In this document: piece by piece, positions 14,740-31,712 of the stretch
Position numbering within the stretch: the first letter of the stretch is position 1
Layout of the letters: the number at the start of each line of letters is the position of its first letter
Virus record (IMG/VR): IMGVR_UViG_3300025120_000293
Coordinates: 1-31,712 of that record
DNA: 31,712 nucleotides
Source: a virus
Reading direction: 5' to 3' (one strand)
Made by a program: the position numbers and the translations under genes
Notes under the pieces: generated by a model
What the model saw: only the letters and a program-made list of their open reading frames with translations
Database searches by the model: none
Told to the model about the DNA's origin: nothing

Positions 14740-14762
14740 GTGGGGGTGATTTTCACCCCCTT
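14740..14762. other. Strong G/C hairpin between two small genes
   Basis: GGGGGTGA pairs with TCACCCCC around a TTT loop (14742..14760). On the minus strand the hairpin is followed by ACTTAACT rather than a T run, so it is not a standard minus-strand terminator. It may act as a weak terminator, a processing site or an attenuator between the 74- and 111-residue genes. Its GGGGGTGATT arm matches the terminator at 21261..21270. Confidence 0.45.
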
Positions 14763-16151: not shown

Positions 16152-17825
16152 TTAAAAAGGTATATTATCTTTTATTACTTCAAACCTTTGTTTGTCTTTA
16201 TCTATTTCTTTATAAACACCCCCATTGTGAAAGTCGGGTGCTACCATAAAATCGCCTTGTTTACCATTCTCTTTTCTTTTAACCTTTTGCACATATATTT
16301 GAACACTATCGCTATCATATATGGTTTTTTGTCCAAGATTACGATAAACAGTTATACAATTATATGCCTTGTTAAAAAAGTCAGATGATTGAGAAATATC
16401 ATAAGGATTCGGTACTCTATACTTTCCATCAACACTTTCCATCTTTCTTGGGTGTGCTACTAAAAACAAATGAGTATTGGTTTGTTGGCAGAATTGGGTT
16501 ATTTCCGATAATAGTTTTCCTACATAAGTAAAATCTCGTTGAGCAGAATGGTCTAACATATTATAAGGATCAATCACACATACATTTACACCTTTTTGGA
16601 ATACAAGTTGCTTAAAAGCATCTAAAATGCCTTTTAGGGTTAAGTTTTCAATGTCTATTCGAACAAAGAAAAAGTGTTCCTCTATAAATGTTTTTGTATT
16701 GTTTAAATCTTGTGTGGTACATTCTTTCTCATTTATCTTATTTGCTAACCTTTTTATATGCGATTCATAAGGGAATGATTCAGGTGAAAACATTGCTACT
16801 CTAAAGTTTTCTTGTAATGCAAGATTAACACATATTTGGTCGATGACATCTGACTTTCCTGCATTTGGAATCCCTGTGCATACAGTCCATTCTCCGAAGC
16901 TAATGTTATAATACTCATTAGAGTTTCCCAATCGCACATTATAATTCTTGATTCCATTCTCATTAAAGTTTAAAACACTTTCCCAAATATCGTTAATATT
17001 TAGAACACCCTCTATCGGAAAGTTCTTTGCTTTACTAACAACTTCTCGAAGTTCACTTGCACCTTTGTTGATTAATATATCGTTAGCATCTTTATAATCG
17101 CCAAATTCAACATACTTACACCTACCTTGTCCAAATCTTCTTGCAAGTTCACCTCGAAGTGATAATCCTGCTTGGTCATTATCTGTGCATAATATAATCT
17201 CTGTTTTATCCACAAAGTATTCCCAACAGTTATCAAGATATTCTAATCGTTGTGATCCTTTAGATGCACCATTAGGAACTGAACAAACACTATAAAGACC
17301 TGCTTCGTGTAATGATAAAGCATCTATTTCGCCCTCAACAATATAAATCTTTTCCATTTCCTTGATATTATCAAGACCATAAAAGATAAGTTCAGCATCT
17401 TTAAAAAGTTTAAAGTTCTTTTGTCCATCACGATACTTGATGTTTATTAGTTGCTTTTCACGATAGTAATTAAAGTTGATTGCTATTCTTTCTTTTTTGA
17501 CTTGTGGAAAATACTCTATGGATTCGCTAATGTTCCAATTAACGATTGTGGTTTCAGATATACCTCTTTTAGCAAACCACTTTAAAGTTTTCTCCGATAG
17601 TTCAGATTTAACCTCGATTGGTTTTACATATTCTTTTTTTTGTTGAAGATTAACATTACCACTATATCCGCAATGATGACAGTTGAATAAACCTTTTGGT
17701 TCATTTATGGATAAGCACCTTTCTGTTTTCTTTTTTCTTGTGCTACTGCACTTTGGGCAAGTAGTGTGGAACTCCCCTTGCTTGAAACCGATGTCGATTC
17801 CAAAATCTAAAAATTTATCTTTCAT
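16152..17825 (-). CDS. DNA primase-helicase (Toprim plus DnaB-like)
   Basis: A 557-residue bifunctional replication protein similar in layout to T7 gp4. A zinc-binding N-terminus has C23/C26 and C49/C52 (CPKC, CHHC). The Toprim part shows VEGEIDAL at 163 to 170 and TDNDQAG at 214 to 220, the acidic metal sites of primases. The DnaB/RecA-type ATPase has Walker A GIPNAGKS at 318 to 325, Walker B VCVIDP at 415 to 420 and HLFLVAHPRKM as the later sensor motif. It would unwind DNA and make primers at the fork. No DNA polymerase gene is present, so host polymerase is probably used. Its start overlaps the stop of the preceding gene by 11 bases. Confidence 0.95.
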   Translation of the reverse strand: MKDKFLDFGIDIGFKQGEFHTTCPKCSSTRKKKTERCLSINEPKGLFNCHHCGYSGNVNLQQKKEYVKPIEVKSELSEKTLKWFAKRGISETTIVNWNISESIEYFPQVKKERIAINFNYYREKQLINIKYRDGQKNFKLFKDAELIFYGLDNIKEMEKIYIVEGEIDALSLHEAGLYSVCSVPNGASKGSQRLEYLDNCWEYFVDKTEIILCTDNDQAGLSLRGELARRFGQGRCKYVEFGDYKDANDILINKGASELREVVSKAKNFPIEGVLNINDIWESVLNFNENGIKNYNVRLGNSNEYYNISFGEWTVCTGIPNAGKSDVIDQICVNLALQENFRVAMFSPESFPYESHIKRLANKINEKECTTQDLNNTKTFIEEHFFFVRIDIENLTLKGILDAFKQLVFQKGVNVCVIDPYNMLDHSAQRDFTYVGKLLSEITQFCQQTNTHLFLVAHPRKMESVDGKYRVPNPYDISQSSDFFNKAYNCITVYRNLGQKTIYDSDSVQIYVQKVKRKENGKQGDFMVAPDFHNGGVYKEIDKDKQRFEVIKDNIPF

Positions 17826-18445: not shown

Positions 18446-18743
18446 CGTTCATCTCTAAAAACTTCTCCAATGCACCAAGTGTTCTCCAGGCAGCTTTACC
18501 AAGATGTAATAATCCATCTTCATCTAATGGTTCTTCTGTGTGGTCTATTAAATGCCTTACACAAGCATCTAATTCATCTTTAGATTTTTCCCTATCCCAA
18601 TGAAGTGGTGTTCCTGGATTGTGTTGTTCATTTCCAACATAACTTACTTTAGAAACATATCTGATTGCTTTTGGAAAATATTTTAGAACTCCTGAAAAAA
18701 CAGGAATTTCTTTTCTTTCTTGATGTTTATTCTTTTTACTCAT
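18438..18743 (-). CDS. dATP/dGTP diphosphohydrolase-like protein (DUF5664 type)
   Basis: A 101-residue protein that fits the DUF5664 pattern: GVLKYFPKAIRYVSKVSYVGNEQHNPGTPLHW, then DREKSKDELDACVRHLIDH, then LDEDGLLHLGKAAWRTLGALEKFLE. Key residues are the H-N-P-G, D-R-x-K-S, R-H-x-x-D and D-x-D-G-x-x-H-x-x-x-x-A-W-R groups, which suit a MazG-like all-helical phosphohydrolase with a metal site. From memory, relatives hydrolyse dATP/dGTP, and one branch serves phages with 2-aminoadenine DNA. No PurZ or other partner gene is in this window, so a simple nucleotide-pool role is also possible. It overlaps both neighbours (4 and 8 bases). Confidence 0.75.
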   Translation of the reverse strand: MSKKNKHQERKEIPVFSGVLKYFPKAIRYVSKVSYVGNEQHNPGTPLHWDREKSKDELDACVRHLIDHTEEPLDEDGLLHLGKAAWRTLGALEKFLEMNDE

Positions 18744-19423
18744 ATATTTATTTGTTTTAGATTCTTACCAAATTTGGCTTCGAATAGGTTAATGTATTTC
18801 AAACCATCTTTATTTTTCTTTCTAAGTTTTAAAATGGTCAAAAAATTGTTTTTCCAAAAATCATCTGATCTAACTTTTTGGACTATGTAATAAACTTTTC
18901 TTGGTGAATATCCATCTAACCTTTCAAGTTTATCAATACAATCAATCCAAGCCTTTTTATCGGCTTGTGTTTTGGGTTGGGTTTGAATTGGAAATAACTC
19001 ACATATTGGTTCAAATGATTTTAAAACCATATCTGAAAATTCTTTCTTCTTATATTCTAATGTATTATTATTTATATTAGTATATATATTATCCTGGTGA
19101 TTATCTTCTATAGGGGGTGCATTTTTTTTCACTACCTCACGAAAATTTATGATGTATATTTCACGACTTTCAATTTCCTTTGAATTTTCTTTATAAGTCA
19201 TTTTTAATTTAATATATTTTCTTGTTTTTAATTGTCCAATCCAATCGGTAATTGATCTTGTTTTCACACCATATAAGTCAGCAAAATATTTATTTCTTGC
19301 AAAACAAAAACCTTTCTCATTACATAGGGCAGTAATTTCGCCATATAATAATTTGGCATTAGGGGTTAGTGTTTGGTCATATCTGACAAATGCAGGTATG
19401 ATAGCGTAATAACTTTTTTTCAT
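18740..19423 (-). CDS. Replication initiation / replisome organiser-like HTH protein
   Basis: A 227-residue protein whose N-terminal 100 residues form a winged HTH of the HTH_36 type: YYAIIPAFVRYDQTLTPNAKLLYGEITALCNEKGFCFARNKYFADLYGVKTRSITDWIGQLKTRKYI. A polar linker with many Asn (IYTNINNNTLEY) leads to a C-terminal helical region with KKAWIDCIDKLERLDGYSPRKVYYIVQKVRSDDFWKNNFLTILKLRKKN. This region resembles the C-terminal domains of phage replisome organisers. Such proteins bind the phage origin and recruit the helicase. The primase-helicase gene four places downstream fits this role. It follows the 84-residue gene after 7 bases and overlaps the DUF5664-like gene by 4 bases (ATGA). Confidence 0.8.
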   Translation of the reverse strand: MKKSYYAIIPAFVRYDQTLTPNAKLLYGEITALCNEKGFCFARNKYFADLYGVKTRSITDWIGQLKTRKYIKLKMTYKENSKEIESREIYIINFREVVKKNAPPIEDNHQDNIYTNINNNTLEYKKKEFSDMVLKSFEPICELFPIQTQPKTQADKKAWIDCIDKLERLDGYSPRKVYYIVQKVRSDDFWKNNFLTILKLRKKNKDGLKYINLFEAKFGKNLKQINI

Positions 19424-19430
19424 TTAATCT

Positions 19431-19685
19431 TTACAGGTTTTCGGTAATGTTTTTTATTTCATTACAAAATTTTCTCAATCTATCGTACATAAGCTGCACA
19501 TCTTCGTTTGAGATTTCTTCATCTTCAAACTTTAAAAACAATGCTTCAATTAATAGATCAAACTCAACTTTGGTAAGCGAACCGATATATGTATAGTTTT
19601 CAAAATCCTCAAAATTATGAATAACAGTATATCGAATCCTTTGCTTAGATTCCGACCAATAAACCATTTTATAACTCTGAATCAT
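19431..19685 (-). CDS. Hypothetical early protein (84 aa)
   Basis: An 84-residue acidic protein (KQRIRYTVIHNFEDFENYTYIGSL, then TKVEFDLLIEALFLKFEDEEIS, then VQLMYDRLRKFCNEIKNI). It looks like a short strand pair followed by two or three helices. An alternative start at MVYWSESK (ATG 19667), just after the stop of the DnaA-like/VRR gene, would avoid the 17-base overlap, and the sequence does not decide between the two. It is placed between two replication genes. The family is not recognised. Confidence 0.6.
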   Translation of the reverse strand: MIQSYKMVYWSESKQRIRYTVIHNFEDFENYTYIGSLTKVEFDLLIEALFLKFEDEEISNEDVQLMYDRLRKFCNEIKNITENL

Positions 19686-20343
19686 TGGGTTTTGATAAAT
19701 AAAGGTCTATAATTTCAATAGTTTTATCGTAGTCATTTGTCCAATGACACTCCCAGTTCTCTTTTCTTAATCTATCTAAAGTTTCTTTTTGACTATCGGT
19801 TGGTTTGTTATACCCAATCTTTAATTCGATTGCCAAACCATACCTACCAGTTCCACCACCCCTAAATATTAGTATATCAGGAACTCCTGCTTTACCACCT
19901 AAATATTTAAACTTAAATCTTTCAAATGGACTTCTTTTCCCCTCATTTGCAACGTGAATTGCATAAACATTAGGATATTGAAAAGCTAAATACTCCATTA
20001 CACTATGTTGTAATTTATCTTCTTTACTTAAATATTTATCAAATGGATTTGCCAACTTATCTATATTTTTTAAACATATTGATTTTAAAGTTAAGTAATT
20101 ATTTTGGGTTGATTTATTATATTCAATCAAAAAGTTAAATTGTTTATGTCCATTAACTACTGTGGCGTGATTTAAATTAACAGTTTTTCCTAATTTTTCA
20201 TAAGTTGCACCTGGCACTAATTCTCTTGATAAACTGTAATAAATACCCCTTGCATCAACATAAACTTGTTGCCTTGTTTTTTTAGAAATGTCAATTTGAA
20301 AATATTGATTGACTATATCTTTTATTGTGTTTAAATCTTTCAT
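19669..20343 (-). CDS. DnaA domain IV-like DNA-binding domain fused to a VRR-NUC nuclease
   Basis: The 224-residue product (from ATG 20343, which overlaps the RecE-like stop by 4 bases as ATGA; an ATG at 20355 is also in frame) has two domains. The first 75 residues match DnaA domain IV: IKDIVNQYFQIDI, then VDARGIYYSLSREL and YEKLGKTVNLNHATVVNGH, which corresponds to the DnaA D-H-T-T-V-x-H signature. The second domain is VRR-NUC-like, with NEGKRSPFERFKFKYLGG, KAGVPDILIF and LAIELKIGYNKPTDSQKETL, giving the PD...ExK-type catalytic Asp, Glu and Lys. It could cut DNA at or near DnaA-box-like sites, or trim recombination intermediates. The fusion is unusual to me, so the biochemical role is inference. 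Confidence 0.85.
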   Translation of the reverse strand: MKDLNTIKDIVNQYFQIDISKKTRQQVYVDARGIYYSLSRELVPGATYEKLGKTVNLNHATVVNGHKQFNFLIEYNKSTQNNYLTLKSICLKNIDKLANPFDKYLSKEDKLQHSVMEYLAFQYPNVYAIHVANEGKRSPFERFKFKYLGGKAGVPDILIFRGGGTGRYGLAIELKIGYNKPTDSQKETLDRLRKENWECHWTNDYDKTIEIIDLYLSKPNDSEL

Positions 20344-21134
20344 CTTTTTTTCCAACCTTTTAAAATTATAGTACCATCATCATCAAAATCTTGGGATTGA
20401 TACCCAGTTTGAATACCTTTTTCTTTATATAGTTTCCAAAATGTAAATGCTCTTTCAAAATCTAATTCAGCATTTTCAAGAAATACATCATCTAATTTAT
20501 AAACCTCGACTCCGTATGGGTGATTTGTTTCACAAGCTATAAATCGAAACCTTGATGGATCAATGCCCAACATAAAGCAGTAAAAATATGATTGTAGGTG
20601 GTAATTCCTTGACTTTATATCGAAGATAAATTTTTCAGGTGAACTATCTTGACAAGTTTTTATATCGCTAATCCAATCATCACCCATACAATCAGGTCTT
20701 ACTCGAACTGGTATGCCTTGATAAGTTCCATAATGAGAAACCTCAATTTTACCCTTTGACCATTTTTTAACCTTGTCATTGCTAATAAAGTTTTTGTGGA
20801 TTCCTCGTATGATATTATCCTCATCTTCATCTAAAGCCACCTTGCCTTTGTTCTTTTCGATTAGCATTGCTTTTAATTCTTTGTCATCTTTTTTTCTTAG
20901 ATCAAGTTTTGGAAGAACATAATATTCTTTTTTAAATGCTTCAATGCCCTCATAACAAATTGTGTGTACGGCATTACCCCTTGTCATAAATTTAGTTGTC
21001 TTAATGGGTTTGCGATTGACATAGTGCCAAACTGATTTCTCTGCTATGTATTTTAAACTACTTGCAGATATTGAATCTTTTGAGTGGTACTCCTCAATAC
21101 TATCATTTTTTACTTCTAAGTTTTCTATTTTCAT
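20340..21134 (-). CDS. RecE-like exonuclease (PD-(D/E)XK)
   Basis: A 264-residue nuclease of the RecE/DUF3799 type (PF12684 as I recall). The N-terminus has YHSKDSISASSLKYIAEKS and MTRGNAVHTICYEG, with the family His H57. The active site is made by E131 (KIEVSHYG), D148 (RPDCMG), D157-x-K159 (SDIKT) and Q181/Y183 (NYHLQSYFY). With the ERF annealing protein (21573..22064) and SSB-like protein (21284..21571) it gives a full single-strand annealing recombination set: the nuclease makes 3' overhangs, ERF anneals and SSB protects. The gene overlaps the small coiled-coil gene at its 5' end and the DnaA-like/VRR gene at its 3' end. Confidence 0.9.
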   Translation of the reverse strand: MKIENLEVKNDSIEEYHSKDSISASSLKYIAEKSVWHYVNRKPIKTTKFMTRGNAVHTICYEGIEAFKKEYYVLPKLDLRKKDDKELKAMLIEKNKGKVALDEDEDNIIRGIHKNFISNDKVKKWSKGKIEVSHYGTYQGIPVRVRPDCMGDDWISDIKTCQDSSPEKFIFDIKSRNYHLQSYFYCFMLGIDPSRFRFIACETNHPYGVEVYKLDDVFLENAELDFERAFTFWKLYKEKGIQTGYQSQDFDDDGTIILKGWKKR

Positions 21135-21254: not shown

Positions 21255-21281
21255 AAAAAAGGGGGTGATTAACCCCCTTAA
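21255..21281 (-). terminator. Rho-independent terminator after the SSB-like gene
   Basis: On the minus strand AAGGGGGT pairs with ACCCCCTT around TAATC and is followed by TTTT. It lies 3 bases after the SSB-like stop at 21284. It would reduce readthrough into the RecE-like and replication genes, so the SSB/ERF transcript may be more abundant. Confidence 0.85.
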
Positions 21282-21283
21282 AG

Positions 21284-21571
21284 TTAGAATGGTAAGTCAT
21301 CATCTTGCTCTGCAATAACAGGTATAGATTCTGATTTAACTTCTTTTTGCTGCATATCATTTGTCTTGCCATTGCCAAGATAATTTGTTTTTGCACCACC
21401 ATCTCTTTCTTCTTTTGTTTGAGATTGTGCTATTGCAACATTGTTATTGAACTGGTCAGGTTCATCATTTACAAAAAGAACTAAATTTAAATAAGTTCCT
21501 TTTTGACCTTTTATAAGTTTTGATTTATCAATTTTAGATAAATTAATACTTGCAGTAATTGTTCGTGCCAT
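21284..21571 (-). CDS. Single-stranded DNA-binding protein-like
   Basis: A 95-residue protein. ARTITASINLSKIDKSKLIKG and YLNLVLFVNDEPDQFNNNVAIAQ look like the strands of an OB fold, followed by QTKEERDGGAKTNYLGNGK. The end is QDDDLPF, the acidic tail with terminal Phe typical of SSB proteins, which recruits partner enzymes. Direct homologues of this short type are common in Bacteroidota phages. With ERF upstream (gap of 1 base) and the RecE-like nuclease downstream, it completes the recombination set. It is shorter than cellular SSB, so it is likely a phage-specific SSB family. Confidence 0.8.
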   Translation of the reverse strand: MARTITASINLSKIDKSKLIKGQKGTYLNLVLFVNDEPDQFNNNVAIAQSQTKEERDGGAKTNYLGNGKTNDMQQKEVKSESIPVIAEQDDDLPF

Positions 21572-21572
21572 A

Positions 21573-22064
21573 TTATATTTTGTTATGATAAACTTTTTTA
21601 TTTTGATTTACAGAAGTTATTGATCTGCTTTGATTTATTGTTTTTCCCGATGCTTGGTTTGCATCATCATCTTTAGTTCTAATTCCTATCAATCCTTGTA
21701 AAGTAAATCTTCTAAAATAAGTGATTGTGCTTCCAAGTTTTTGAGGATCAGATACAGGTTGTAATTCTAAACTTGATGATTTAGATTGTCCTGTTTCAAC
21801 ACAAGTCAAAATAGTAAAAACTTTACCATCTTTCATTGGTTGTTCAATACACACTTTATATTTATTTAATAAAGGTTGTAATTGTTCTAACATCGCATTG
21901 ATGTCTGCATAATTAGATTTAAAAAAAGGATTATTAGCATCTTTTATAATAGCTTCAATCTCATTTTGAATTCTAAATATTTTAAGATTGATACTCCAAT
22001 TTGGAAAATCCATCTTTTTAACAACTGTCTTTTTAGGAGTTGTCGTAGCTTTCTCTTTATTCAT
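21573..22064 (-). CDS. erf: ERF-family single-strand annealing protein
   Basis: A 163-residue recombinase of the ERF family (PF04404). The diagnostic part is FRIQNEIEAIIKDANNPFFKSNYADINAMLEQLQPLLNKY, then MKDGKVFTILTCVETGQSKSSSLEL, then QKLGSTITYFRRFTLQGLIGIRTKDDDAN. The S-x-Y-A-x-I and ITY.RR..L..L.GI elements are strongly conserved. It anneals complementary single strands during phage recombination and circularisation of terminally redundant DNA. The N-terminal 25 residues (TTTPKKTVVKKM) are a basic unstructured tail. It is the third gene of the early operon. Confidence 0.93.
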   Translation of the reverse strand: MNKEKATTTPKKTVVKKMDFPNWSINLKIFRIQNEIEAIIKDANNPFFKSNYADINAMLEQLQPLLNKYKVCIEQPMKDGKVFTILTCVETGQSKSSSLELQPVSDPQKLGSTITYFRRFTLQGLIGIRTKDDDANQASGKTINQSRSITSVNQNKKVYHNKI

Positions 22065-31280: not shown

Positions 31281-31712
31281 TTAATTTATTTTAAATGCCA
31301 TATATACATAAGTACTTCCACTTCTGTTTAAACCGTGATATGAGCTTTTTAATTGAAAATCATTATCATTAAAATCAATTTTGTAATTAGTTGTATCATT
31401 GTCTTCAGCAGAATTGGAGTTAGCTATTAATGCTTTACTAATAGGATTACTATCACCACGAACACTATCAAATATAAACCAAGGGTTTGTATTATCTGCT
31501 TCTTTAATCATAATCCAATCAGGTCTAAAGCCTAATGTTACGGTTGGTCCTGTTGCATTTCCATTTCCTTGATAGCTTGAAATCTTGCTATATCCAGATA
31601 CTGAATGGAAAGCATACATTATATATTCACTACCTGATGTATTAGTAGCAGATGAAGTTCCAATATTAACAACAGTACTTGTAGGAGCAGTATCATTCCA
31701 AACATTTGTTGC
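31281..31712 (-). CDS. Adhesin / tail fibre with DUF7483-like repeat, C-terminal part (enters from the window edge)
   Basis: The frame is open from base 31712 to a TAA at 31281 (143 codons). It has MYAFHSVSGYSKISSYQGNGNATGP, then GFRPDWIMIKEADNTNPWFIFDSVRG, then a closing YHGLNRSGSTYVYMAFKIN. The same pattern is found at the low-coordinate end of the window. An ATG at 31619 is only an internal Met of the MYAFHSV repeat, because the frame continues upstream of it with matching repeat text (TSGSEYI). It is therefore the end of a longer gene, most likely the one that starts at 2048. It would be exposed at the tail and bind the host surface. Confidence 0.8.
   Translation of the reverse strand, partial: ATNVWNDTAPTSTVVNIGTSSATNTSGSEYIMYAFHSVSGYSKISSYQGNGNATGPTVTLGFRPDWIMIKEADNTNPWFIFDSVRGDSNPISKALIANSNSAEDNDTTNYKIDFNDNDFQLKSSYHGLNRSGSTYVYMAFKIN
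31600..31622. repeat. 23-nt direct repeat, copy 2 (first copy at 70..92)
   Basis: It is identical to bases 70..92 and encodes the same MYAFHSV segment in the paralogous repeat. See the first copy. Confidence 0.85.

Follow-up and report, generated by a model that had tools for sequence, protein, structure and literature searches.

The window, that is, the whole stretch of DNA analyzed here, is a 31.7 kb virus record (31,712 nucleotides) that carries siphovirus-like structural genes (terminase, portal, head, tape measure) and a replication and recombination cluster on the minus strand. The best named relatives of its primase come from flavobacterial and other phages, with Tenacibaculum phage JQ in first place (38% identity), and the host of the phage is probably a marine flavobacterium. 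Near both ends of the record lies a 42-nt repeat (positions 51-92 and 31581-31622; 79% identical), which may be a repeated tail-protein coding sequence.

Within the minus-strand cluster, a gene at positions 19669..20343 (ATG at 20343, stop at 19669; an alternative TTG start at 20355 is possible) encodes a protein of 224 amino acids in which Pfam profiles and a structure model identify a DnaA domain IV followed by a VRR-NUC nuclease domain. Its ATG shares four nucleotides (ATGA, 20340-20343) with the stop codon of the upstream gene (20340..21134, minus strand), the product of which is a RecE/exonuclease VIII-like PD-(D/E)XK nuclease (DUF3799). Further upstream on the same strand are the genes for a small protein with the C-terminus DDDLPF (21284..21571; phrog_24909, a family of unknown function), which its tail and position suggest to be SSB-like, and for an ERF single-strand annealing protein (21573..22064). 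Downstream, again on the minus strand, the fusion gene is followed by a gene for an 84-amino-acid protein of unknown function (19431..19685), which relatives carrying the split form described below also have in this position, and then by those for a replisome organiser or helicase loader-like protein (HTH_36; 18740..19423) and a TOPRIM primase-helicase (16152..17825). The placement of the gene between a recombination set and a replication-initiator gene, as given in a previous reading of this DNA made from the sequence only, is thus correct, with ERF and the RecE-like gene upstream and the replisome organiser-like gene downstream.

Two G/C-rich, terminator-like hairpins (GGGGGT...ACCCCC) are present in the recombination-replication region at positions 21259-21279 and 14742-14760; the former is kept in relatives and precedes a small ORF that encodes a coiled coil. 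The gap ahead of the RecE-like gene was considered as an array of binding sites and rejected as such, since it is occupied by the terminator-like hairpin and the small ORF.

Domain identity and structural model of the fusion protein

The gene combines a genuine DnaA domain IV and a VRR-NUC domain in a single reading frame. Residues 5-67 score 32.7 bits with the Pfam profile Bac_DnaA_C (cut-off 31.5), and positions 348-434 of the NCBIfam DnaA model are matched at 1e-7, well under the cut-off that this model sets for a whole protein. Nearly all other fused or split members scanned pass the Bac_DnaA_C cut-off as well, with one of them (L020) falling short by 0.5 bit. Residues 130-197 score 24.2 bits with Pfam VRR_NUC (cut-off 23.8; family members 25-35 bits), and the C-terminus matches the sequence of the VRR-NUC protein in PDB entry 4qbl at 5e-9.

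An AlphaFold2 model of the fusion monomer built from 44 sequences reached a pLDDT of 88.5 and agrees with an earlier one built from 20 sequences (pLDDT 79); its pTM of 0.55 means that the relative placement of the two domains is not fixed by the model. Residues 2-95 superimpose on the DNA-binding domain of Mycobacterium tuberculosis DnaA bound to box2 DNA (3pvp; Z 16.1, rmsd 1.5, 93 aligned residues) and on Escherichia coli DnaA (1j1v; Z 15.1, rmsd 1.6, 90 aligned), and residues 106-224 on the VRR-NUC structures 4qbl (Z 14.7, rmsd 2.6, 109 aligned), 4qbn (Z 10.2) and 4qbo (Z 10.1). Beyond the VRR-NUC structures, the nuclease half comes closest to archaeal Hjc (about 7.5) and RecU resolvases, with Z scores of 6.5-7.5 that are weak when taken alone. 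Both domain assignments of the sequence-only reading therefore hold, each half matching its assigned fold, and the possibility that the N-terminus is an unrelated helical bundle is excluded by the structural matches; the borders move, with the DnaA part ending at residue 94 instead of 75 and the nuclease beginning at about residue 106 instead of 115.

The DnaA domain IV-like half (residues 1-94; 20062..20343, minus strand) ends in a helix (residues 77-94) that forms the linker. It contains a basic loop (residues 20-26, SKKTRQQ; 20266..20286, minus strand) carrying the arginine that corresponds to R399 of E. coli, as judged from an alignment to 110 Bacteroidota DnaAs and the E. coli protein, and a helix-turn-helix (residues 48-75; 20119..20202, minus strand) in which L57, N58, H59, A60, V63 and N64 correspond to the base-reading residues R432, D433, H434, T435, L438 and H439 of E. 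coli DnaA, according to the base contacts in PMC5043019. The VRR-NUC half (residues 106-217; 19693..20028, minus strand) has the complete set of catalytic motifs on that strand, namely E108 (20020..20022), P155-D156 (19876..19881), E173-L-K175 (19819..19827) and the late glutamine Q185 (19789..19791), a residue whose role in VRR-NUCs is treated in PMC4103454. E108, P155, D156, E173, K175 and Q185 are each found in 59/59 related proteins, in agreement with the core residues picked out in the sequence-only reading (P-D, E-L-K, late Gln). Hence, the nuclease half is a VRR-NUC member by profile, by motif and by fold. No AAA+ ATPase domain is present; Pfam and NCBIfam reveal domain IV only, and the remainder of the protein is VRR-NUC. 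Judged from this domain content, the fusion protein is not a DnaA initiator.

Fused, split and nuclease-only forms

A search with the window protein yielded 41 viral loci, and one with a divergent member yielded 147 relatives, 80 of which were kept; removal of near-copies left 59 non-redundant viral loci. A survey for further proteins combining the two domains, as proposed in the sequence-only reading, is thereby answered: the DnaA-IV and VRR-NUC parts are fused in 18 of the loci, they are encoded by separate genes in 33, and in the remaining eight the nuclease occurs with no detected DnaA domain. In the split loci, the DnaA-IV gene is located directly upstream of the nuclease gene without exception (33/33). 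The open fusion is seen in many viral contigs from different metagenomes (42-100% identity), and in both halves amino-acid changes are far rarer than silent ones; these observations rule out an artefact of assembly or sequencing.

The fused gene is one of the states in which this widespread two-part module exists. Two split loci (L030 and L049) share with the window the order of the genes that surround the pair, the nuclease protein of L030 begins at the fusion junction (MANPYDKWLGKED vs LANPFDKYLSKED), and in many split loci the two genes overlap, the start codon of the nuclease gene lying 76 nt inside the DnaA-IV gene as counted from its end. Trees were calculated from short alignments (110 columns for the nuclease, 79 for the DnaA-IV domain), and both reject a single clade of fusions (p-AU 0.0018 and 0.0039, respectively), which indicates that fusion or fission occurred more than once. 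Two loci inside the main fusion clade, L218 (5917-6408) and L221 (5929-6405), have lost the helix-turn-helix and possess an intact nuclease; of the DnaA part, the end of its last helix (LKEICITKLNNLANPF) is still there, and the two loci represent a natural deletion of the DnaA head. In L055/L056 and L035-L041, a nuclease gene is present and no DnaA-IV gene lies within the fetched flanks. The fusion was not found in 395 Flavobacteriia genomes or in a scan of genome contigs; all matches there were separate or weak.

The pair also occurs in other settings. With the fusion as the query, a Flavobacteriia genome contig was found in which genes for a DnaB-like helicase, a DnaA-IV protein (116 aa) and a VRR-NUC-like protein follow each other, the last being matched by a custom profile and not by Pfam. 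Cellulophaga phage phi46:1 encodes a VRR-NUC protein (gp37) and a DnaA-IV protein (gp40, below the Pfam cut-off), and in phage ctfjg026 a gene for a 97-amino-acid VRR-NUC overlaps the start of a DnaA-IV gene. The phages Harreka and tooticki and Pelagibacter phages have DnaA-IV genes whose fetched flanks lack a VRR-NUC gene. Human-faecal GenBank records labelled 'Bacteriophage sp.' (L185-L192) contain what seem to be complete bacterial dnaA genes (ORFs of 414-500 aa); they are probably bacterial contigs and were set aside as evidence on phages.

Several further arrangements came to light in these searches. A Bacteroidota genome contig (L176:3857-4468) encodes a 203-amino-acid protein in which DUF7768 is followed by Bac_DnaA_C, and a stand-alone DnaA-IV protein (L177:3186-3632) belongs to what appears to be a Mu-like transposable phage, with transposase-like and ATPase genes upstream. 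In Blattabacterium, an endosymbiont of cockroaches, tiny plasmids of 3 kb carry a VRR-NUC gene (L268:1681-2067, L269:1485-1865) between genes for a ribonucleotide reductase and a DUF1599 protein; its product is 36-41% identical to the nuclease half of the window protein.

What the DnaA-derived head can read

The base-specific contacts of E. coli DnaA are made by residues 399, 423, 432-435 and 438-439 (PMC5043019). The head of the fusion was compared at these and neighbouring positions with the DnaA domains of 110 Bacteroidota, 80 of which stem from close Flavobacterium relatives, using a set of 27 fusion loci that includes close copies. With DnaA domain IV (Bac_DnaA_C; 1j1v, 3pvp), the fusions share the fold, the equivalents of R399, R407 and H434 (27/27 each), a basic residue at position 415 (K415 replaced by R in 27/27) and T or S at position 436; the basic-loop arginine and the residues that contact the DNA backbone are thereby retained. 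They differ from DnaA in that no AAA+ or other DnaA domain accompanies domain IV, that the basic loop is three residues shorter than that of the E. coli protein, and that three base-readers are mostly changed: R432 is replaced by L or K in 25/27, D433 by N in 18/27 and H439 by N or F in 22/27. The Bacteroidota DnaAs retain R432 (108/110), D433 (110/110), H434 (110/110) and H439 (105/110). With L, N, H and N at these four positions, the window protein lacks the base-reading set of DnaA proper, and its head, a member of the DnaA-IV fold, is by its residues not a reader of the canonical box. Position 435 is an alanine in the fusions and in 80/110 of the sampled host DnaAs, mostly those of Flavobacterium, so that this particular change is not phage-specific.

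Variation at the base-reading positions is of the same kind in a wider set (18 fused proteins, 33 split ones), which retains the equivalents of R399 and R407 in 16/18 and 17/18 of the fusions and in 33/33 of the split forms. R432, D433 and H439 are kept more often in the split forms (23/33, 24/33 and 28/33) than in the fusions. The sequence-only reading had made contact with DnaA boxes depend on basic-loop and helix-turn-helix residues being kept in homologues, and the outcome is divided: the basic-loop arginine is kept, but the base-readers R432, D433 and H439 of the helix-turn-helix are mostly replaced.

The two halves evolve at different rates. Where silent divergence is comparable (dS mostly 0.5-1.7), the DnaA half typically exceeds the nuclease half 2- to 5-fold in amino-acid divergence, and the ratio of the p-distances of head and nuclease (1.7-1.9) is alike in fused and split forms. 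A faster head is what one would expect if the site that it reads differed between phages, and these divergence values fit such a view; mere relaxed constraint could likewise account for them.

A search for DnaA boxes in the phage, one of the checks proposed in the sequence-only reading, revealed neither enrichment nor conservation. Five exact boxes (TTATNCACA) occur in the window against 3.3 expected, which is no enrichment, and boxes with one mismatch are fewer than in shuffled sequences. A pair of inverted boxes inside the primase gene (17184/17206) was a promising candidate but is not conserved in relatives. Among over-represented 8-10-mers and repeats, none stand out.

Proposed function, rival explanations and known systems

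VRR-NUC proteins that occur on their own form dimers and cleave four-way junctions; proteins of this type are known as structure-selective Holliday junction resolvases and not site-specific cutters (PMC4103454). Given the position of the nuclease gene behind the ERF and RecE-like genes, the simplest role for its product is the resolution of recombination intermediates. The explanation that we favor, with a probability of roughly 0.55, is that of a Holliday-junction-resolvase-type nuclease whose repurposed DnaA-IV head holds it on phage DNA or directs it there. The protein would be a branched-DNA nuclease of the VRR-NUC type equipped with a duplex-DNA-binding head derived from DnaA domain IV, and it would be expressed as part of the recombination operon of the phage, which also encodes the ERF annealase, the SSB-like protein and the RecE-like exonuclease, along with the replication genes. 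By analogy with its VRR-NUC relatives, the nuclease probably forms a homodimer and cleaves the junctions and other branched structures that recombination-dependent replication leaves behind. Each subunit would contribute a DnaA-IV head, and the pair of heads would probably keep the enzyme on duplex phage DNA, most likely at a phage-specific sequence and not at a host DnaA box, and branches near that site may be processed before packaging. The analysis shows the two folds, the full catalytic motifs, the position in the operon, the recurrence as fused or adjacent genes, the repeated change between these forms and the altered base-readers; dimerisation and junction cleavage are transferred from VRR-NUC relatives, and DNA binding by the head, the nature of its site, the role ahead of packaging and the stage of infection concerned are proposals. 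Several observations count against this explanation: no binding site was found in the window by k-mers or DnaA boxes, the head is dispensable in places (L218/L221, L055/L056, L035-L041), and in some phages the fetched flanks of a DnaA-IV gene contain no VRR-NUC gene.

In a more specific version, which we consider possible and put forward tentatively, the protein would be a sequence-addressed Holliday junction resolvase, in which a DnaA-type head with a drifted specificity that varies from phage to phage brings the nuclease to one chosen site on the phage genome. Branch resolution, and perhaps also the initiation of packaging or recombination-dependent replication, would then be tied to a defined place in the genome. 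The DnaA-IV part may instead be an origin-binding or operon-regulating phage protein with a job of its own, its joining to the nuclease securing only their co-production and leaving the nuclease unaimed. Such a separate job agrees with the stand-alone DnaA-IV genes that several phages carry with no VRR-NUC in the fetched flanks and that are annotated as DnaA or replication initiation, with the production of separate proteins from overlapping genes in the split form, and with the loss of the head and persistence of the nuclease in L218/L221. We nevertheless regard it as rather doubtful in view of the strict adjacency in the split loci, the occurrence of the pair in three unrelated settings, and the gain or loss of the fused form more than once; the co-divergence of head and nuclease is also expected from shared ancestry alone.

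The sequence-only reading had envisaged that the head reads DnaA boxes of the phage origin or the host oriC and that the DNA is nicked or cut by the nuclease at these places. The fold is indeed that of DnaA on its box, the equivalents of R399 and H434 are retained, and the alanine at position 435 is common in host DnaAs, but the replacement and variability of R432, D433 and H439, together with phage boxes that are neither enriched nor conserved, speak against such cutting, as do the structure-selective nature of VRR-NUCs of this type (PMC4103454) and the rapid evolution of the head, more in keeping with a phage-specific target than with a fixed host box. We therefore hold box cutting to be unlikely. 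Least probable of all is a homing or site-specific endonuclease with a FokI-like layout of a helix-turn-helix head and a PD-(D/E)XK domain. FokI does appear in the Foldseek list with a weak score, and the catalytic domain of I-Bth0305I in the VIA-align list with a Z of 6.5, yet the VRR-NUC match is far better (Z 14.7), the place in the operon is constant in distant relatives including the split form, and the loci read give no sign of insertion into other genes. A role in anti-phage defence was rejected, as neither the fusion nor the two proteins of the split form have a match in PADLOC.

Among the closest known systems are the stand-alone VRR-NUC resolvases (4qbl psNUC, 4qbn, 4qbo; PMC4103454), which share the fold, the E-PD-ExK motif, the late glutamine and a phage setting with recombination genes; these are single-domain proteins, whereas here a DnaA-IV head precedes the nuclease. 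The fusion is unlike FAN1-type VRR-NUC proteins, which are long and multi-domain and have a helical insertion that blocks dimerisation; its 112-residue nuclease domain aligns along its length with the single-domain 4qbl, and FAN1 chains reach Z scores of 5-7. The TnpA-REP (Y1/HUH) transposases of subclass 2.1.2 also combine a nuclease with a Bac_DnaA_C-like domain (PMC6006769), but theirs is an HUH single-strand nuclease with this domain at the C-terminus, in contrast to the PD-(D/E)XK nuclease and N-terminal domain of the fusion. Most of the elements of this subclass have terminal repeats unlike DnaA boxes (PMC6006769). Stand-alone DnaA-IV proteins (Olleya phage Harreka_1, Cellulophaga phage phi46:1, Flavobacterium phage tooticki, Pelagibacter phages HTVC010P/HTVC204P) likewise have no AAA+ domain and are encoded in early regions of the phage genomes; they differ from the protein studied here in not being fused to a nuclease.

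A description of a DnaA and VRR-NUC fusion or module was not found in the literature searched, a body of work outside which most subscription journals fall, in line with the statement of the sequence-only reading that it knew of no such system. In these marine phages, the DNA-reading part of a bacterial replication initiator is reused, free of its ATPase, as the partner of a recombination nuclease, in fused and two-gene forms that interchange. The module offers a direct way into the role of the many stand-alone phage DnaA-IV proteins, which the records call replication initiators without test, and, should the head have a specific site, a resolvase with an address would be useful for studying how phages process recombination intermediates. 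A 218-amino-acid viral protein, UniProt A0A516L0Z0 (BFVD), is matched over its full length at 42% identity and, by this alignment, is very probably another such fusion that has already been deposited unnamed.
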